Assembly (NCBI GenBank): GCA_028284045.1
Contig: JANQSN010000028.1
Span: forward strand, 62,001 to 126,000
Length of the DNA: 64,000 nucleotides
Source: Alphaproteobacteria bacterium
GTDB lineage: Bacteria; Pseudomonadota; Alphaproteobacteria; DSM-16000; Inquilinaceae
Direction of reading: 5' to 3'
Shown one piece after another: positions 10,159 through 62,937 of this stretch. The notes beneath the pieces are model-generated. The model saw nothing but the letters and a program-made list of their open reading frames with translations, was not told the DNA's origin and did no database searches. A program made the translations under genes and the position numbers. Positions within the stretch are counted from its first letter, which is position 1, and the number at the start of each line of letters is the position of its first letter.

Positions 10159-10986
10159 ATGACCGACGCGCGCGACAACACCCTAGCGGCCTCCGTGGGG
10201 ACCCCATCGAGGCTGCCGGCCGGCCGCGAACGCTTCGTCGCCATCGCCAGCGGCAAGGGCGGCGTCGGCAAGACCTGGCTGGCCATCACGCTGACCCACG
10301 CGCTGGCGCGCATGGGCCTGAAGGCGCTGTTGTTCGACGGCGATCTCGGGCTCGCCAATGTCGACATCCAGCTCGGGCTGATGCCCAAGCGCGATCTCGG
10401 CGCGGTGCTGGACGGCGCCATCGGCCTGTCCGGCGCGGCGATGCCCTATCGGCCGGGCGGCTTCGATGTGATCGCCGGCCGGTCGGGCAGCGGGGCGCTG
10501 GCCAACCTGGCGCCGCAGCGGGTCACCGAGCTGCGCGCGTCGCTGAACGCCGTCTCCGGCGACTATGACCGCGTGCTCCTGGATCTCGGCGCCGGCATCG
10601 ACCGCAATGTCTGCCAGCTCGCCCAATCGGTCGGCACCACCCTGGTGGTCACCAATGAGGAGCCGACCTCGCTGACCGACGCCTACGCGCTGATCAAGAT
10701 CCTCAAGTCCAGCGCGCCGGAACACGACATCCGCATCATCGTCAACATGGCGACGACGCCGCGCGACGGGGCCCAGACCTACAGCACGCTGTTGAAGGCG
10801 TGCGACAGCTTCCTGGGCTGCAAACCGCCGCTGGCCGGCGTGGTGCGCCGCGATGCGCAGGTGCGCGAGGCGATCCGCGCCCAGGCGCCGATCCTCAACC
10901 GATCGCCCTCCTGCGACGCCGCGCGCGATGTCGAGGGGATCGCCGCCAGCCTGTTCGGTACCGGCGAGCACGGCGACGCCTCATGA
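10159..10986 (+). CDS. flhG: MinD/ParA-like ATPase FlhG (flagellar number regulator)
   Basis: 275 residues. FlhG is a membrane-associated MinD-type ATPase that counteracts FlhF to limit flagellar number. The deviant Walker A motif SGKGGVGKTW is at about residue 31, with DGDLGLANVDIQLGL (switch I region) after it and LLDLGAGID (switch II) near 140. It directly follows flhF. Its stop overlaps the start of the next gene in ATGA, so the FliK-like protein is translationally coupled to it. Confidence 0.92.
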   Translation: MTDARDNTLAASVGTPSRLPAGRERFVAIASGKGGVGKTWLAITLTHALARMGLKALLFDGDLGLANVDIQLGLMPKRDLGAVLDGAIGLSGAAMPYRPGGFDVIAGRSGSGALANLAPQRVTELRASLNAVSGDYDRVLLDLGAGIDRNVCQLAQSVGTTLVVTNEEPTSLTDAYALIKILKSSAPEHDIRIIVNMATTPRDGAQTYSTLLKACDSFLGCKPPLAGVVRRDAQVREAIRAQAPILNRSPSCDAARDVEGIAASLFGTGEHGDAS

Positions 10987-12704
10987 GCCTGGGCGCCGCC
11001 CCACCGGCGCCGCCGGCGACGGCCGGCGCGGCCGCCGCCGGCTCGGGCGGCGCCAGCGTTTCGGGGGAGGTGCGCAGCCTGCCCGATCTCCTGGCCCAGC
11101 GGCTGGCCCAGGCGACGCGGCCGATTGCGGTTCCCGGCACGGTCATCGCCAGCGATGCGGGCCAGGCCGTGCTGCGCACGCAGTTCGGGCCGCTGACCTT
11201 CCGCAGCGCCGAGGCGCTGCCGCTCGGTGCCCGGGTTACGGTGAACCTGCCGCCGCCGAGCCGGCCGATCAGCCCGGCGGCGTTGTCGGTGCGGCCGATG
11301 CCGGCCCAGATCCTCGGCCTGCCGGGTCCGGCGGCACCGCCCGCCGCGGGCGGCCTCGGCGGGCTCGCGACGGCGGGACTCCCGGCCGGCCCGATGGCGG
11401 CGATGCCGGCATTGCCGGCCGGGCTGGCGAGCCCTCTGGCGGGATTGACCGGTCTGTTGTCGCAACCGGGCGCCGCCCCGGCGCTCCGCGCGGCCGGGCC
11501 GACCGGTGCCGCCCCGACGCCGGCCTTGCCGGGCGCGCCGGCATCGGCGGCGGGACTACCATCGCCGACCGGTAGCGGGCCGATGACGGCCGGGCCGGCG
11601 GCACTGCCGGGCGGAGCACCGGGCGCGGGCGCCCCGGCATCGGCGGGCGCCGCGACGGCGAACCCCACCGCCACGCCATCGGCCGGGGCGACGGCCGAAG
11701 CGACCCAAACCGGCGGCCAGCCCCCAGCGACGGCGGCACGACCGGGCGGACCGCCGGCGCCGACACCGACACCCGCCGGCCAGGCCACCGCCGCACCGGC
11801 CCCCGCCGCCGCGCCGGCGGCCCCGCAGCCGGCGCCGGGCCCGGCCAGTCGGGCGGTCCCGGTCCAGGGGCAAGCAACCGGCGGTGCACCCGTCTCGACA
11901 GCGGCGACGACGGCGGGCACACCGGCGACGACGCCGGCAACCGCGTCGACCATAGTGGCCCGGGCGACAGCACCGCTGCCCTATGGCACGAGCGCACCCG
12001 CGTCGGCGGGACCCGCCGGCGCCGCGACGGGTCCGACCGGCATCGCCGCCGCCGGTACCGGCGACGCCAATCCGATGCCGGGCCTGCGCGAGGCCCTCGC
12101 GGCGCTGAGCCAGTCGGACCCGGGGCTGGCCAGCCGCACCGCCCAGACGACGGTGCTGCAGCCGACGCCGCAGCTCGGCGGCACGCTGATCTTCCTGATG
12201 TCGGCGCTGCAGGGCGGCGACGTGCGTCACCTGATCGGCGATCGCGCCCAGCGCGTCCTGGAGGCGACCGGGCGTGCCGACGTGCTGGCGCGGATCGGCC
12301 GCGACCTCGCCGGGGCCGTGCAGACCACCCGCGACGCGGCCGGCGGCGAGTGGCGCAGCTTCCAGTTGCCGGTCTTCCACGGTCAAGGCTGGTCGACGCT
12401 GACGCTGTCGGTCCCGCGCGTCCGGCGCGATGCCGGCGCCGCCGCGCCCGCCGACCGGCCGGGCGGGCGCCGCTTCCTGGTCGACGTGACGTTGAGCCAG
12501 GTCGGGCCGGTTCAGCTTGACGGGGTCTTGCGCCCGCGCCTCCTGGACGTCGCGCTACGCTCGCGCCACCGCTTCACCGGCGAGGAGCGCCAAGAGATCC
12601 AGTCGCTCTACGCCGCGGCGCTGGCGACCGGCGGTCTCGGCGGCACCCTGACCCTGGCGACGGGGGCGGAAGGCTGGGTCCGTCTGGCGCGATCGGGGCG
12701 ATAG
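10983..12704 (+). CDS. FliK-like protein with a long Pro/Ala/Gly-rich middle
   Basis: 573 residues from the ATG at 10983 (the frame stays open upstream inside flhG, but that part is not used). The N-terminal 100 residues form a folded-looking domain (VPGTVIASDAGQAVLRTQFG, then LPLGARVTVNLPP). Residues about 110-360 are low-complexity Ala/Gly/Pro/Thr. The last 170 residues look folded again (ending FLVDVTLSQVGPVQLDGVLR, then SRHRFTGEERQEIQSLYAAAL). The layout, disordered ruler plus C-terminal domain, is that of a hook-length-control protein, but the canonical FliK with its Flg_hook motif is at 46566. This one is therefore a FliK-like paralogue or an export-associated protein of unknown role. 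Confidence 0.6.
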   Translation: MSLGAAPPAPPATAGAAAAGSGGASVSGEVRSLPDLLAQRLAQATRPIAVPGTVIASDAGQAVLRTQFGPLTFRSAEALPLGARVTVNLPPPSRPISPAALSVRPMPAQILGLPGPAAPPAAGGLGGLATAGLPAGPMAAMPALPAGLASPLAGLTGLLSQPGAAPALRAAGPTGAAPTPALPGAPASAAGLPSPTGSGPMTAGPAALPGGAPGAGAPASAGAATANPTATPSAGATAEATQTGGQPPATAARPGGPPAPTPTPAGQATAAPAPAAAPAAPQPAPGPASRAVPVQGQATGGAPVSTAATTAGTPATTPATASTIVARATAPLPYGTSAPASAGPAGAATGPTGIAAAGTGDANPMPGLREALAALSQSDPGLASRTAQTTVLQPTPQLGGTLIFLMSALQGGDVRHLIGDRAQRVLEATGRADVLARIGRDLAGAVQTTRDAAGGEWRSFQLPVFHGQGWSTLTLSVPRVRRDAGAAAPADRPGGRRFLVDVTLSQVGPVQLDGVLRPRLLDVALRSRHRFTGEERQEIQSLYAAALATGGLGGTLTLATGAEGWVRLARSGR

Positions 12705-54476: not shown

Positions 54477-54504
54477 AGCCGCGCTAGCCGATCAAGGCGC
54501 GGCT
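54477..54504. terminator. Hairpin between convergent FkbM and sciP
   Basis: AGCCGCGC and GCGCGGCT form an 8-bp stem with a 12-base loop at the junction of two converging genes. No T run follows, so this is only a weak candidate for a bidirectional terminator. Confidence 0.3.
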
Positions 54505-54788
54505 CAGCCGCGCGAGGCGGCGGCGACGCTGCGATAGACCTGCAGGCGGGTGGAGCGCAGGCCCGGCGTGCCGTGCGCATCGATCAGCCGCTGCCAGGAC
54601 AGGAATTCCTCGATGCTGAGATCGTAGCGCTGGCAGACCTCGGCCAGGCTGACCTGCCCGGTGCGGACGGCCTCCACCACCTTCGCCTTGCGGGAGGACA
54701 CCCAGCGCCTTGTATCGGGAGGGGGCAGGTCTTCCAGCGCTGTCGTGCTCGATGCATGCCTGCCATTGCCACCCGATCGCTCGGACAT
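54504..54788 (-). CDS. sciP: CtrA inhibitor protein SciP (DUF1153)
   Basis: 94 residues. SciP binds CtrA and blocks it from recruiting RNA polymerase at class II promoters. The hallmark is a helix-turn-helix-like region: DLPPPDTRRWVSSRKAKVVEAVRTG, VSLAEVCQRYDLSIEEFLSW and HGTPGLRSTRLQVYR, which is the DUF1153/SciP signature. Having ctrA, sciP and many CtrA-box genes in one locus gives a complete CtrA control module. A near-consensus CtrA box (54845-54859) lies 57-71 bases upstream. It is divergent from the FlaF-like gene. Confidence 0.9.
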   Translation of the reverse strand: MSERSGGNGRHASSTTALEDLPPPDTRRWVSSRKAKVVEAVRTGQVSLAEVCQRYDLSIEEFLSWQRLIDAHGTPGLRSTRLQVYRSVAAASRG

Positions 54789-54926: not shown

Positions 54927-55047
54927 ATTAAGCTGTTAGCTGATAACTAACCGGCCGTGAGGACCGGGCGGCAAATGAACGAACAGGAGCCACCTGGCAA
55001 CCTGTCTCATCCGCGCTTTATTGAGAGATGGCACAGGAGATCCGCCG

Positions 55048-55419
55048 ATGAGTATGATTCAGACCTCGCCGCAGCTTACGCTGAGCGAAGAACTCGCCTT
55101 CCCCTTCCTCCAGACCGCCCTGGAGATCGACAAGGCCGGCGAGAATCCGGACGATCGCCATGGGCTGATCGCCGTGATGGCCAACAACGCGATGCTGTGG
55201 ACGCATTTGAAGACCCAGTTCTCGCGCAGTTCCGAAGGTATCAGCGGCGACTACATCAAGTATCTGGCCGAGATGAGCCAGTTCATGATCAAGTCGACCT
55301 TCGTCGCGGCGCGCGAAGCCGATCGCACGTTCCTGGACAAGGTGATTCAGATCAACCTGAACATGTGCGAGCAGCTGCTCACCCTCTCGGCCGACAGCGA
55401 GACCGCCGGCACCGCCTAA
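55048..55419 (+). CDS. FlaF-like flagellin chaperone/regulator (stand-alone)
   Basis: 123 residues from the ATG at 55048, with AGGAG at about 55033; the TTG at 55021 is less likely. FlaF works with FlbT to couple flagellin synthesis to hook completion and to help flagellin export. It aligns by eye with the FlaF half of the fusion at 60197: NNAMLWTHLKTQFS against KNQMLWTIFQSAVS, a TF pair further on, and QINLNMCEQLL against GINRNVAMGLL. It lies across a CtrA-box-bearing promoter region from sciP and ends with a clear terminator. Confidence 0.65.
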   Translation: MSMIQTSPQLTLSEELAFPFLQTALEIDKAGENPDDRHGLIAVMANNAMLWTHLKTQFSRSSEGISGDYIKYLAEMSQFMIKSTFVAAREADRTFLDKVIQINLNMCEQLLTLSADSETAGTA

Positions 55420-56695: not shown

Positions 56696-58828
56696 TCAAC
56701 CAGCGGCGCGCGCCGCCACCATCCCGCGGAACGCCGCTTCCAGCGCCCGCGCCATGTCCGCGGTGTCGCAAAGTTTGCTGTCGACCATCTCCCGGCGCAG
56801 GCTGGCGCGCAGCGCGCGCCGGCCCTCGACGTCGCGGGCCAGGTCGACGGCGATCTCGACGAAGCCATCCTCGTCGGACGCCAGCCATTCGGTCCGGCCG
56901 AGACCGTTCAGGATCGTCGCGGTGATCCGTCCGCCCAGATACCGGCCGGGCATGGCGACGATCGGCACGCCCATCCACAGCGTGTCGAAGGCGGTCGTGC
57001 CGCTGGTCAGCGGCATCGTGTCCAGCGCCACGTCCATCAGGTCGTACTGCGCCATGTGGTCGACCCAGGCCTTGGTTCCTTGCAGCAGCCGGATCCGCTC
57101 GCGCTCGATCCCTTCGCGGACCAGCCACGCAACCGCGGCGTCCAAGTGATCGCCGAAGATGTTGCGTTGGTCCTTGACCAGCAGCTCCGACCCCGGGACC
57201 GCGTGCAACACCCGGGCCCACAGCGTCAGCGTGTCGGGCGTCAACTTCATCGCATTGTTGAAGGAGCCGAAGACGACCGGCCGGTCTGCGTCGATCTCGC
57301 TGCGCGGCGTCGGCGCTTCCTTCAGCGGGCGATAACTGATCCAGGGCCGCGGCAGGCGCCACACCTGCTCCACGAAGCAGGCATCCAGCGCCGGCGGCAC
57401 CAGGACCTCGTCCGCGATCAGATAGTCGACGGTCGTAAGGCCCGTGGTTCCCCAATAGCCGAGATAGTGGCATTGGATCGGTGCCGGTCTCTTGGCAAAG
57501 ATGCCGAGCCGGTCGTCGCCGGTATGGCCGCTAGTGTCGATCAGGATGTCGACGCCGTCGTCGGCGATCACCCGGGCCGCCGCCGCATCGTCGAGATCGG
57601 CGATGTCGCGGAAGGCGTGCCCCGTCTCCTGAATGGCCAGTGCCTGATCGTCGTTGCGCCGCTTGGTCGAGTAGAGAGTAAGCTCGAACGACTGGCGATC
57701 CAGTTGGCGCAGCAGCGGGTCCAGGAAGTACGCGACCGCGTGGTAGCCGAATTCCGACGACATCAGGCCGAGCTTGATCCGGCCGTCCGGTCGCGTCGCG
57801 GCCTGCGGTTCGAGGCGGCCCGGCGACCGATCGGGCGCCCATGACCGGTCAACCAGCGTCTCGGCCAGTTGGCGCCGCGCGAGCGGCGTGGCGAAGTCGC
57901 ACCATTCGTTGAGAAAGAGGATGTTCGTCAGGGACCGGACGAACCCCGGATCGCGATCCAACGCCCTCGCGTAGTAGAGTTCCGCGATCAGCAGGTTTCC
58001 GTGCCGGCGCCGTTCCTCCGGATCGAACCGGTCGTCCGGCAGCGCCTCGCCGTCCGGCATCAGCGCCCCGGCAAGCGACGCGTCGAAGGGATGCAACGGC
58101 CCCAGCCGGTGCAGGGCCTCGCCGATATTGTTGTAGGTGGCCGCCGATCGTAGTCCCAACGCCAGCGCCCGGAAGCTCGCCGTCAGCGAATCGTGGTACC
58201 GCGCATCCGACAGCAGGCACCATCCCAGCTCGTGGTGGAAATCGGCGTTGTTCGGCTGCAAGGCGATCGCCTGCGTGTAGGCGTCGACCGCCGCGGCGAA
58301 TTCCTCGGTCTCCATCAGCACCCGGGCCTTGATCGCCAACGCCAGCAGATGCGACGGGTCGAGCGTCAAGGCGGCATCGCAGCACTTCAGCGCCTCGCTG
58401 CGCCGATCGAGAAGCCTGAGGGCCTGCGCCATGGTCGCATAGGCCGGCGCGTGATCCGGCTTCAGGGCGAGCGTGTGGCGAACCACGGCCACGGCATCCA
58501 TCGGCCGCGCCGCCTCGCACAGGAAGGTGGCCAGGAAGCCGAGCGCGCCCAGATGCTTCGGGTTGACCCGGACCAGCTCCTCCAGAACCGCAATGGCCCG
58601 CGCGAGCTCGCCGCACCGCGCTTCCGCCATCGCCAGCGTCAGCAAGACCCCTTCGTCCCCCGGCCGCCGTTCCAACAGCGCCAAGCAGATGCGACGCGCC
58701 CCGGCTGCGTCGCCCGCGTTGAACAGGTTGGCGGCGCTGACGAGATCGACGCCGACGCGACCCGCGCCCTCATCGGGCAGATCGGCCGTCTCTGTCGCTT
58801 GCCGCTGGCTCTTCGTCATTGCGCGCAT
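56696..58828 (-). CDS. TPR/OGT-type glycosyltransferase (GT41), likely flagellin glycosyltransferase
   Basis: 710 residues; AGGGA precedes the ATG at 58828. The N-terminal half (about 30-260) is made of TPR repeats (AGARRICLALLERRPGDEGV, ALALKPDHAPAYATMAQALR). The C-terminal half is the O-GlcNAc transferase catalytic domain: LGLMSSEFGYHAVAYFLDPL, DILIDTSGHTGDDRLGIFAKRPAP, YLGYWGTTGLTTVDYLIAD, FGSFNNAMKLTPDTLTLWARVL and LDTMPLTSGTTAFDTLWMGVP. Enzymes of this kind add sugars to Ser/Thr; a position four genes downstream of flagellin points to flagellin O-glycosylation. Confidence 0.88.
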   Translation of the reverse strand: MRAMTKSQRQATETADLPDEGAGRVGVDLVSAANLFNAGDAAGARRICLALLERRPGDEGVLLTLAMAEARCGELARAIAVLEELVRVNPKHLGALGFLATFLCEAARPMDAVAVVRHTLALKPDHAPAYATMAQALRLLDRRSEALKCCDAALTLDPSHLLALAIKARVLMETEEFAAAVDAYTQAIALQPNNADFHHELGWCLLSDARYHDSLTASFRALALGLRSAATYNNIGEALHRLGPLHPFDASLAGALMPDGEALPDDRFDPEERRRHGNLLIAELYYARALDRDPGFVRSLTNILFLNEWCDFATPLARRQLAETLVDRSWAPDRSPGRLEPQAATRPDGRIKLGLMSSEFGYHAVAYFLDPLLRQLDRQSFELTLYSTKRRNDDQALAIQETGHAFRDIADLDDAAAARVIADDGVDILIDTSGHTGDDRLGIFAKRPAPIQCHYLGYWGTTGLTTVDYLIADEVLVPPALDACFVEQVWRLPRPWISYRPLKEAPTPRSEIDADRPVVFGSFNNAMKLTPDTLTLWARVLHAVPGSELLVKDQRNIFGDHLDAAVAWLVREGIERERIRLLQGTKAWVDHMAQYDLMDVALDTMPLTSGTTAFDTLWMGVPIVAMPGRYLGGRITATILNGLGRTEWLASDEDGFVEIAVDLARDVEGRRALRASLRREMVDSKLCDTADMARALEAAFRGMVAARAAG

Positions 58829-59055: not shown

Positions 59056-59457
59056 TCAGTCCGTGGATGGGCCGGCGCCCTGGGGTGTCTGGACCGGCGT
59101 CGGCGCGGGTCCGGCGTCGCTGCCATCTGTTGCCGGCGCGGCGACCGGCGCCGCTGGGACCGGCGCCGCGGCCGTCGATGACGCGGAAGCGTCGGCCGCC
59201 CGGCGATAGTCCTGTGCGCCCTTCTCCTTCGGGTATTGCTGGATGACCTCGCCGGACTCCGAGTCCCGAACCTGCAGGACGTAGAGACCGCTGCTCGGAT
59301 CGATCCGGCCCTTCGGCGAGTAGTAGACCTCCGCCGCCTCGACCTTGGCATTCTCCGCCCCGGTCGACGTCGATTGCTTCGCCGCAGGGGGACGCACATC
59401 GGCGTGGTTCGGCTGAAGCGAGACCGCACCCGCCAGGCTCATGGTCATCTCGTCCAT
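59056..59457 (-). CDS. Small FlaG-like protein of the flagellin operon
   Basis: 133 residues, with AGGAG before the ATG at 59457. A central block (YVLQVRDSESGEVIQQYPKEKG, then AQDYRRA) resembles the FlaG motif in which an acidic residue, TGEVI and Ile/Pro are conserved. The tail of about 45 residues is Ala/Pro/Thr-rich. No signal peptide is seen. FlaG proteins affect filament length in other bacteria; here the match is partial and the function is not established. Confidence 0.5.
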   Translation of the reverse strand: MDEMTMSLAGAVSLQPNHADVRPPAAKQSTSTGAENAKVEAAEVYYSPKGRIDPSSGLYVLQVRDSESGEVIQQYPKEKGAQDYRRAADASASSTAAAPVPAAPVAAPATDGSDAGPAPTPVQTPQGAGPSTD

Positions 59458-59487: not shown

Positions 59488-60159
59488 TTACCTCACCGGC
59501 GGGAACAGGCTGTCATAGGCGCCGGAGAGGATATTCGTCAGGTTGGCCGCGTTGTCGTCCAGCATGGTGCCGATCGCCTGGGCGGCCAGCGTGGCCGGCG
59601 ACGCCTGGGCGTCGGCCAGGGGATCCGTGGGCGTCACGCCCGCAACCGGCGTCGTCTCGGGCACTGCGGCCGCCTCGGTGGTGTCGTAGTCTTTGACGAC
59701 CTTGCTGCCCATCTGGAGCTGCAGCGAGTATGGCTTGTCCGTCCCGTCGTCTCCCTTCAGTCGCGAGACGCGCACGATGTAGTCGCCGGGCTTGAAGCCC
59801 TCCTCGCCGTCAGGGCTGGTAATGCGCTGAAAGCTCTCATAGGCGTCGCCGGCATCGGGATCGCTGTCGGCGATCACCCGGCCGCGGTCGTCCAACACCT
59901 GCAGGCGCACCGTCTCATCGTTCCAACCGCCGATCCGGAACGGACCGGTGGACGGGACGTTGAACTTGAAATGGTCCTGCTCGTCGCCGTTGGTGAGGCT
60001 GGTGAAGATGTTGAGCCGGCTGTGGTTCAGGCGGACCTGACCGACATCGCGCGCCGTCTTCCAGGTGTCGGCGTTGACGTCGCGGACGGTCTTCTCGAAG
60101 ACCTTGGGCCCGCTGTTGTCCGTCTCGAACACGGTGGGGGAGAATGAAGCGACTTCCAT
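59488..60159 (-). CDS. PPC-like beta-sandwich protein of the flagellin operon
   Basis: 223 residues from the ATG at 60159, with GGAGGA upstream. Residues about 45-150 match by eye the pre-peptidase C-terminal (PPC) beta-sandwich fold: DEQDHFKFNVPSTGPFRI, VRLQVLDDRGRVIADSDPD, FKPGDYIVRVSRLKG and PYSLQLQMGS. No signal peptide is present, which is odd for this usually exported fold and would fit export by the flagellar system. The C-terminus (TLAAQAIGTMLDDNAANLTNILSG) is helical. It lies between the flbT-flaF fusion and the FlaG-like gene. Role unknown. Confidence 0.55.
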   Translation of the reverse strand: MEVASFSPTVFETDNSGPKVFEKTVRDVNADTWKTARDVGQVRLNHSRLNIFTSLTNGDEQDHFKFNVPSTGPFRIGGWNDETVRLQVLDDRGRVIADSDPDAGDAYESFQRITSPDGEEGFKPGDYIVRVSRLKGDDGTDKPYSLQLQMGSKVVKDYDTTEAAAVPETTPVAGVTPTDPLADAQASPATLAAQAIGTMLDDNAANLTNILSGAYDSLFPPVR

Positions 60160-60196
60160 GAGCGGGGTCCTCCGGACGGCGGCGCGACGGGCGCGA

Positions 60197-61102
60197 TCAG
60201 GCCGACACGAACCGGCCGCTCTCCGCCGGCGCTTGCGGCGCCGGGGCTGCGTCCACCCGGTCGTTGCGGGTTGCCGCACCGCCTTCGCCCGAGCCCAACA
60301 GGCCCATGGCGACGTTGCGGTTGATGCCGATCAGGAAGCGGATCGTGTCGACGTTGTGATCGCCCAGCGCGGAGAAGGTCTTGCGGTCGATGGCGTAGGA
60401 CAGCGCCAGGATGTTGTCGCGCAGCTCATCCGACAGCGGCGTCTGTCGTTCCGAAACGGCCGACTGGAAGATCGTCCATAGCATCTGGTTCTTGCGCAGC
60501 GCATCGCGCATGCGGTGCACATCCTCGGGATGACGGATGCATGCCTCCAGCTCCTGCGACGCCTTGGTCAGCGCCCAGGCTTCCAGGGCCCGCGGGTCGT
60601 CGATCGACGGCGGCTGATCGTACCCGCCGGTGTATCCATTTGGCATGTCATCCTCATGGGTCTTTGCGTTGGACTGTGGCGCGGCGCTCTCCGGCGGCTG
60701 ATGGCCGGGCACGCAATCGGGGAAGGTTTCGCGGCAGGCCTTGAGCGCCCGGTACAGGAAGCCGTCGGCAAGCAGATGAACGATCCCATCGATCGCGGTG
60801 CCGCGGTCCGGATACTCGTCGCGGACGGCCGCCACGGACTGCGCCAGCAAGGGCAGATACTGCTCTGCCTTCTCCGGATCGATGTAGAGAAGCTGAATGA
60901 TGAAGTAGAGCTGCCGCGCCCCGGAGCGGGTGCCGCCCCGCGTGCCGATGCCCTCCAGCGCCTCCGGCGACACCACGTCGTCCTCGCGCAGAATGCGGGC
61001 CTGGTTCAGGAAGGTCAGCTCCGTGCCGCCGTGTTCGCAAACGATGACGGCGCCATTGACGATGATCTTCTCGTTCGGCTTCAGCCTCAGCTTCAGGGGC
61101 AT
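60197..61102 (-). CDS. flbT: FlbT-FlaF fusion protein (flagellin synthesis regulator)
   Basis: 301 residues. Residues 1-130 are FlbT: MPLKLRLKPNEKIIVNGAVI, CEHGGTELTFLNQARILRED and RQLYFIIQLLYIDPEKAEQ. Residues 153-300 are FlaF: MPNGYTGGYDQ, DDPRALEAWALTKASQELEA, KNQMLWTIFQSAVSER and ELRDNILALSYAIDRKTFSAL. In most alphaproteobacteria these are two adjacent genes, flaF and flbT. FlbT represses flagellin mRNA until the hook is done; FlaF opposes it and aids export. An internal ATG at 60644-60646, exactly where FlaF should begin, has a GAGGA-type ribosome-binding site a few bases upstream, so free FlaF may also be made. It lies downstream of flagellin. Confidence 0.85.
   Translation of the reverse strand: MPLKLRLKPNEKIIVNGAVIVCEHGGTELTFLNQARILREDDVVSPEALEGIGTRGGTRSGARQLYFIIQLLYIDPEKAEQYLPLLAQSVAAVRDEYPDRGTAIDGIVHLLADGFLYRALKACRETFPDCVPGHQPPESAAPQSNAKTHEDDMPNGYTGGYDQPPSIDDPRALEAWALTKASQELEACIRHPEDVHRMRDALRKNQMLWTIFQSAVSERQTPLSDELRDNILALSYAIDRKTFSALGDHNVDTIRFLIGINRNVAMGLLGSGEGGAATRNDRVDAAPAPQAPAESGRFVSA
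60644..60658 (-). promoter_or_regulatory. Possible internal translation start for FlaF inside the fusion
   Basis: On the minus strand GAGGATGAC precedes an in-frame ATG at 60646 (codon 153), which begins the FlaF-like half. It has the look of the original flaF ribosome-binding site retained after loss of the flbT stop codon. Confidence 0.5.
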
Positions 61103-61373: not shown

Positions 61374-62867
61374 TTACCGGAACAGCGACAGAACCGACTG
61401 CGCCGACTGCGAGGCCATGCTCAGCGCCTGGATACCAAGCTGCTGGCGGGTCTGCAGGGCGAGCATGTTCGCCGCTTCCTCGTTGCCGTCGGCCAGCGTC
61501 AGCTTGTCGGCACCGGCCTGCAGGGCGTTCACGAACTCGCTCGTGAAGTCCTCACGAGTCTGGATCACGCCCAGGCTGGTGGAGAACTCACGGGTCTGGC
61601 TGCGCAGCGTATCGCGTGCCGTATCCAGCTTCGTGATGGCGGCATCGATATCGCTGTCCGCGGCCCAGGAGTTCTGCGCCGCCGCCAGGGAGAGACCCGT
61701 CGTCGTGGCATCCTGCGCCTGCACGTTGATCTTCGCCGTGCCGTCCTGGTTGAACGAGACGCTGAGGTCGTTCGTGCCGGTGCCGCCGACGCCCGTGCGG
61801 GTCAGACCGGCGGTATTGCCGACCACCAGCGAGGCCTCGGTGACATTGATGCTGACGCCGTTGACGCCCCAGTTCGCCGAGTTCGAGAAGGTCTGAACGC
61901 CGTCCGACGCGATCGCGATGGTCTCGGTGTGACCCTTGGCATCGACATGAACGCGCTTGTCCGTGCCGGCAATGGTCTTGCTGACCGTGTCCGTGCCGTT
62001 GGTGAAGGTCAGCGCGTTACCCGACGTGGCGGTGTTGGTCGCTGCCAACGTCACGTCCATGGTGCCGAGCTGAACCGTCACCGACTCGCCATGGTCGTCG
62101 ATGGTGCTGGTGGCGATATCGACGGAGTTGGTGCCGTCGGTGATCGTCATCGTCGCACCGGAGTTCGACACGACCAGCGACACGTTGCCGGCCGCCACAT
62201 CGGTCCAGCCGGTGCCGGAGCCGCCGGAGGCCTGCGTGCCCAAGGTGACCGTCAAGGCACCGCCCGTGGCAACCGCGGAGATGCTGTTCGCGCCGGCGTT
62301 GAACGAGCTACTGCCGGACGCTTCGCCTTCGACCCGGACCGTCGCGGTGAAGTCCTGGCTCTGGGCACCGGTGATGGTCGTCGAGGCCATGCCGCCCAGG
62401 GCATCGATGGCACCGACGCTGTCGGTCCAGACCGCACCGGTGATGGTGCCGCGGCCCTGCATCAGGTTGACGCCGTTGTAGGTGGCATCAGCCGCCAGGG
62501 TGTCGATCTGGGCCCGGATATCGTCGAACTGGGTGGCGAGCGTGGCGCGCTCGGCGCTGGTGCTCGCGGCCTTGGCGCTGACCGCCAGACCCTTGGCTTG
62601 GTCGACCATGTTGGCGATGCTCTCCAGCGACTTGCTGGCGCTTTCGATCGCGCTGATCGCCTGGCCCATGTCGTCCTTCAGCGCCGCGAAATCGGCCGCC
62701 CGGTCCGTCAGGCCCTTGGCCGTGAAGAACTCGACCGGGCCGTCGAGGGCACTGTTGATCTTCCGGCCGGTGGAAATGCGCTCCTGCGTCATATCCATCA
62801 GCTTCGTGGTGCCCTGCAGCTGAAGCAGGTTCGACCGCATCGAGGCGGTGAGGGAGATGTCAGCCAT
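61374..62867 (-). CDS. fliC: Flagellin (filament subunit)
   Basis: 497 residues from the ATG at 62867. N-terminal D0/D1 coiled coil: MADISLTASMRSNLLQLQGT, ERISTGRKINSALDGPVEFF, and ATYNGVNLMQGRG. C-terminal half: TRDTLRSQTREFSTSLGVIQ, EEAANMLALQTRQQLGIQAL and SMASQSAQSVLSLFR. The middle 230 residues are Thr/Ser/Gly/Val-rich and exposed, an expected target for glycosylation. AAAGGA precedes the start. A perfect CtrA box lies 71-85 bases upstream; no clear sigma-54 promoter is seen. Only this one flagellin gene is in the window. Confidence 0.96.
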   Translation of the reverse strand: MADISLTASMRSNLLQLQGTTKLMDMTQERISTGRKINSALDGPVEFFTAKGLTDRAADFAALKDDMGQAISAIESASKSLESIANMVDQAKGLAVSAKAASTSAERATLATQFDDIRAQIDTLAADATYNGVNLMQGRGTITGAVWTDSVGAIDALGGMASTTITGAQSQDFTATVRVEGEASGSSSFNAGANSISAVATGGALTVTLGTQASGGSGTGWTDVAAGNVSLVVSNSGATMTITDGTNSVDIATSTIDDHGESVTVQLGTMDVTLAATNTATSGNALTFTNGTDTVSKTIAGTDKRVHVDAKGHTETIAIASDGVQTFSNSANWGVNGVSINVTEASLVVGNTAGLTRTGVGGTGTNDLSVSFNQDGTAKINVQAQDATTTGLSLAAAQNSWAADSDIDAAITKLDTARDTLRSQTREFSTSLGVIQTREDFTSEFVNALQAGADKLTLADGNEEAANMLALQTRQQLGIQALSMASQSAQSVLSLFR

Positions 62868-62937
62868 GACAAAGGTGTCCTTTTCTGGAGTGGTCAACGG
62901 CATTCTGCCGATAAGCAGAGATGCTAGCAGCCACCCC

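Follow-up and report, generated by a model that had tools for sequence, protein, structure and literature searches.

FlbT and FlaF in a single reading frame: a probable lineage-specific gene fusion beside the flagellin gene of an Inquilinaceae bacterium

How alphaproteobacteria couple flagellin translation to flagellin secretion is understood only in part. In Caulobacter, FlbT represses translation of flagellin mRNA via the 5' UTR (PMC3930126, PMC7591256), acting as a translational co-repressor with the flagellin FljJ, which FlbT needs; FlaF serves as an export chaperone for flagellin and lifts the repression by secreting FljJ (PMC7591256). According to an earlier view, FlaF may modulate FlbT (PMC3930126). 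In the 64,000-nucleotide stretch of DNA analysed here (the window), FlbT and FlaF are encoded in one uninterrupted frame, which raises the question of whether this frame represents a genuine fusion and, if so, what a chain carrying both domains would mean for flagellin homeostasis. A sequence-only reading of the locus had described the two proteins as antagonists fixed at a one-to-one ratio. The first term is outdated in view of the co-repressor and chaperone roles established in Caulobacter (PMC7591256) and of the FliS-like FlaF half described below, while the ratio follows from the presence of both domains in one chain for the full-length product, and for that product only.

The ORF list and the translation bear out the 301-codon frame of that reading and place it on the minus strand, which had been left unstated (Table 1). 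The complete FlbT and complete FlaF domains that it proposed were recovered by searches against both Pfam families: FlbT (PF07378) matched residues 3-127 (8.1e-24, 84.4 bits, profile positions 1-118 of 125) and FlaF (PF07309) residues 166-268 (2.3e-21, 76.3 bits, profile positions 11-113 of 113), above the respective gathering cut-offs of 27 and 23.6 bits. The short linker at the junction is present as well and is of low complexity (VPGHQPPESAAPQSNAKTHEDD). The NCBIfam equivalog cut-offs were missed by both halves (FlbT: 72.3 bits versus 125 for NF001995 and 51 versus 153 for NF009432; FlaF: 76.7 bits versus 91 for NF009435), so that the two domains are divergent members of their families. In the alignments, the FlbT half keeps family positions including L3, L7, E11, V19, R39, Y66, Y117 and L120, and shares with the family its full-length domain and its position adjoining flagellin and flaF; it differs in being continued at its C-terminus by a FlaF domain, in an insert of about 9 residues (about residues 52-60) missing from the other aligned FlbT proteins, and in lacking the conserved C-terminal YExE motif, which is also absent from the Azospirillum polar-type FlbT and the FlbT of the two relatives G004 and G012 (see below). 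The FlaF half, likewise a full-length domain, keeps family positions including E174, N205, W209, L257, N261, G267 and L268. It differs from the family in forming the C-terminal part of a longer protein, whether or not free FlaF is produced as well. Pfam also reported a CHAD-domain match in this half, which fell under its own cut-off and was dismissed.

Table 1. Features of the flbT-flaF locus (positions within the window)
Feature	Position	Strand	Basis
flbT-flaF fusion gene (301 codons + stop)	60197..61102	-	ORF list, translation, Pfam FlbT and FlaF in one frame
FlbT domain, residues 1-130	60713..61102	-	Pfam PF07378, alignment, pLDDT
Low-complexity linker, residues 131-152	60647..60712	-	Low pLDDT, codon usage, comparison with Azospirillum FlbT tail
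FlaF domain, residues 153-301 (FliS-like helical bundle 163-275)	60200..60646	-	Pfam PF07309, pLDDT, FliS structure matches
Candidate ribosome-binding site GAGGATGAC for internal FlaF start	60647..60655	-	Sequence, GAGG core, duplex energy
Out-of-frame TGA, 7 nt before FlaF ATG	60654..60656	-	Frame scan
Flagellin, directly upstream of fusion	61374..62903	-	Pfam
Second, divergent FlaF-like gene	55021-55419	+	Pfam (6e-6)

The structures of the halves were predicted with two separate family alignments, so that the models describe each half by itself. Confidence was high for the FlbT half (pLDDT about 91-96 except in the insert) and for residues 171-270 of the FlaF half (about 88-98), and low for the linker, as expected of disorder. 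With both domains scoring above curated thresholds and adopting confident folds, their union in this frame is beyond chance. The predicted FlaF half superposes on FliS (VIA-align; 6gow_E, Z 13.7, rmsd 2.2 A, 108 residues aligned), and the 10 best VIA-align matches were all FliS or FliS-containing entries (Z 13.7-11.1), followed by an unrelated bundle at 10.8. Since helical bundles reach high Z values easily, we give more weight to the unbroken run of FliS entries than to the Z value itself. The predicted fold of the FlaF half is thus FliS-like, at a sequence identity to the FliS structures of about 12% and with no FliS family among the Pfam matches at 1e-3. For the FlbT half no clear fold match emerged; the search was not run with this half alone, and no conclusion is drawn from it. 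A sequence search of the PDB found no relative.

A survey of its distribution, which the sequence-only reading had suggested, showed the fusion to be rare. FlbT was present in 134 of 385 genomes of a class-wide sample and in 7 of 17 genomes of a family sample (the order sample comprised the identical 17 genomes); the survey was extended to the orders of four other genomes, and removal of repeats left 208 FlbT-bearing genomes, whose FlbT frames of at least 225 aa were all inspected for FlaF. Both domains lay in one frame in 1 of the 208, the source genome alone, where the fusion also holds the single FlbT; as a recurrent architecture it was not found in the other FlbT-bearing genomes sampled, and a literature search of incomplete coverage found no described FlbT-FlaF fusion. 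The long FlbT frames of G460 (809 aa), G059 (794), G455 (375), G339 (322), G013 (280), G405 (270), G367 (260), G296 (258), G382 (255) and G017 (237) were rejected because their length stems from upstream stop-to-stop overhang, with no FlaF domain. An architecture of another kind was seen in G036, a 1.4 Mb genome, in which one 342-aa frame (locus L019, contig 15, about 10636-11550, minus strand) holds three tandem FlaF domains and FlbT lies on a different contig.

The usual arrangement of the two genes puts this rarity into perspective. Elsewhere, 33 of 38 flbT>flaF pairs overlap and none of the 38 shares a frame, in a sample that leans to high-scoring FlbT loci; in most alphaproteobacterial pairs examined, the flaF start region accordingly is flbT coding sequence read out of frame. 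Six further pairs have the order flaF>flbT. A flaF gene that starts beside or inside flbT is ordinary, and the shared frame alone is new.

Because the alternative frame ends at the out-of-frame TGA just ahead of the FlaF ATG, one base missing near the junction would restore two ordinary genes, and a sequencing error hiding a stop near 60660 had been named at the outset as a result that would undo the fusion. If this were an ordinary flbT>flaF pair, joined only by a mistake in sequencing or assembly or by a recent mutation peculiar to the strain, with flbT otherwise ending at this well-positioned TGA, that would agree with the out-of-frame arrangement of all other pairs examined and with the separate genes of the nearest syntenic relatives. 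It is harder to reconcile with a codon usage model trained on the other genes of the window, which (in log2 units) scored the fusion frame at +6.6 versus -9.0 for the alternative frame from codon 132 to the junction, and at +22.5 versus -31.5 from codon 110, although this evidence weakens over the 10-15 codons that precede the FlaF start, the difference falling to a few units over the last ten. Also speaking against an error or fresh mutation, a single four-base homopolymer occurs near the junction, the genome is rated 100% complete (an estimate; 63 contigs), and the linker in the fusion frame is about as long as the tails of Azospirillum FlbT. With codon usage on the side of the fusion frame along the linker, a hidden sequencing error appears unlikely, and we consider this explanation, strain-specific mutation included, improbable as a whole.

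The nearest syntenic relatives, G004 and G012, belong to another genus of the same family. They share with the window a neighbourhood of flgE, flgK and flgL-type genes, an FkbM methyltransferase gene, a DUF1153 gene and a second FlaF gene, which in G004 and G012 is followed by flaF, flbT and flagellin. Gene order and neighbourhood are as in the window, but their flbT and flaF overlap by ATGA in different frames and thus specify two proteins. (Both genomes entered the 38-pair measurement with a later flaF ATG; the translated frames show the 4-nt ATGA overlap.) Their FlbT and FlaF are 28-29% identical to those of the window, as against 46-71% for several of the neighbours. Two separate genes in relatives of the strain had been anticipated as a refutation of the fusion, and such genes do exist in G004 and G012; since these relatives are of other genera, the separate genes show the fusion to be derived rather than false. 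On these sequence comparisons, then, the fusion is derived from separate genes: it is real in the assembly and rare, the pair itself being known and its single-frame form new.

The sequences closest to the two halves come from Azospirillum (FlbT about 38-42%, FlaF 43-44% identity), where the proteins presumably belong to the polar flagellum. Here the organisation lies at the opposite extreme, two proteins encoded on different replicons: in A. ramasamyi (L103, L104, L105), the polar-type FlbT gene follows flagellin, as it does in the window, on one replicon, FlaF lies near glycosyltransferases on another, and a separate, adjacent flaF-flbT pair resides on a third. In phylogenetic trees, the window FlaF groups with the Azospirillum polar-type FlaF (97/91) and the window FlbT with that of G004 and G012 (95/91), with long branches in both cases that leave the exact placements unsure. 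In the Azospirillum polar-type FlbT, the CRKMF motif is followed by a tail of low complexity, about 24 residues long, and 25 residues separate the corresponding CRETF of the window from M153. This match in length and character makes the fusion look end to end, with the linker apparently being FlbT's own C-terminal tail.

Taken with the codon usage, the synteny and the two intact domains, we find it fairly likely that the frame is a genuine, lineage-specific end-to-end flbT-flaF fusion encoding a two-domain protein of flagellin homeostasis in a cell that has a single flagellin gene. Because overlap of flbT and flaF is the norm, a small indel or stop loss would have been enough to fuse them, and the fusion probably arose when two genes that overlapped or adjoined came to share a frame. 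Starting from the usual flbT>flaF pair in the ancestor, such a change would have brought both genes into one frame, upon which the disordered tail of FlbT would have become the linker and the flaF start codon an internal methionine.

This methionine, M153 (ATG at 60646-60644), sits at the start point of homologous FlaF proteins, 15-18 residues before the conserved PR..E motif, and is preceded by GAGGATGAC, whose GAGG core lies 5 nt ahead of the ATG. The sequence-only reading had assigned a ribosome-binding site to this ATG. The ATG, the core and their position at the FlaF boundary are all there, but a GAGG-type core also precedes 24 of 289 (8%) internal in-frame ATGs of the window genes and only 6 of 32 uncurated gene starts in the window, compared with 26 of 54 flaF starts in relatives. 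The duplex energy of the site (-5.6) is about the median of the window gene starts and is equalled or bettered by 26% of internal ATGs. A ribosome-binding site at M153 is therefore plausible, not proven, and weaker evidence than it sounds. Since flaF normally starts within flbT or next to it, the internal ATG is probably an inherited relic of the flaF start, from which free FlaF may possibly be made in addition. The same features lend some colour to a neutral fusion, in which the long frame is translated but the domains work independently, or in which internal initiation or cleavage of the linker yields mostly separate products. The Shine-Dalgarno core at normal spacing would suit it, as would the low predicted order of the linker and the domain order, spacing and adjoining flagellin, which match those of unfused operons; the share of internal ATGs with such a core detracts from the argument. 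We hold a neutral fusion to be possible, if rather less likely than not to apply.

If the fusion is genuine and is made as a single polypeptide, then by analogy with its homologues its FlbT half would limit translation of the single flagellin mRNA, and its FliS-like FlaF half would bind flagellin and deliver it to the export gate. A search of the source genome for Flagellin_N matched the flagellin gene directly upstream and no other, and hence no dedicated FljJ-like co-repressor flagellin was found. The tether might then amount to a new control loop: the FlaF half would detect flagellin awaiting secretion and signal to the FlbT half of the same molecule whether it is loaded. Flagellin would in that event control its own mRNA with no need of a separate co-repressor flagellin, as happens elsewhere in the FliC-FliW-CsrA system, which likewise couples flagellin translation to secretion and in which FliS has the chaperone fold of the FlaF half, with the difference that the repressor is unrelated and the proteins are separate. 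Such a loop is a stronger form of the two-domain fusion favoured above and compatible with it. Besides the lone flagellin and the FliS-like FlaF half, it draws on the requirement of Caulobacter FlbT for FljJ and the relief of repression by FlaF-driven FljJ secretion (PMC7591256). We nevertheless think it doubtful, as the linker is long and apparently disordered and separate proteins may give the same coupling in other species. Unlikely to a similar degree is the fullest version, in which one protein would be both flagellin mRNA repressor and export chaperone, the unsecreted filament subunit would directly set its own translation and free FlaF from the internal start would tune the response. 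Should the favoured reading be true, the natural fusion would mean that FlbT and FlaF can work within one chain and would be a ready-made construct for asking whether one and the same flagellin molecule is the target of both repressor and chaperone; it would also illustrate the ease with which overlapping genes become one.

Genes of the flgE, flgK and flgL types lie near the fusion in the window as well. The second FlaF-like gene, the only other FlaF match in the genome, is a divergent paralogue, conserved at about 48% identity in the G004/G012 neighbourhood. Scans for sigma-70 promoters and terminators gave nothing useful. Downstream of the fusion, the frames at 59056-59457 and 59488-60162 (both minus strand) matched FlaG (0.003) and a pre-peptidase C-terminal domain (0.03), respectively, both below threshold. 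A gene at 54504-54788 (minus strand) that adjoins the flagellar genes encodes a DUF1153 helix-turn-helix protein (1e-29), from the family that we take to contain Caulobacter SciP. Finally, the gene at 56696-58828 (minus strand) combines TPR repeats with a family 41 glycosyltransferase in a layout like that of the flagellin glycosyltransferase FlmG.
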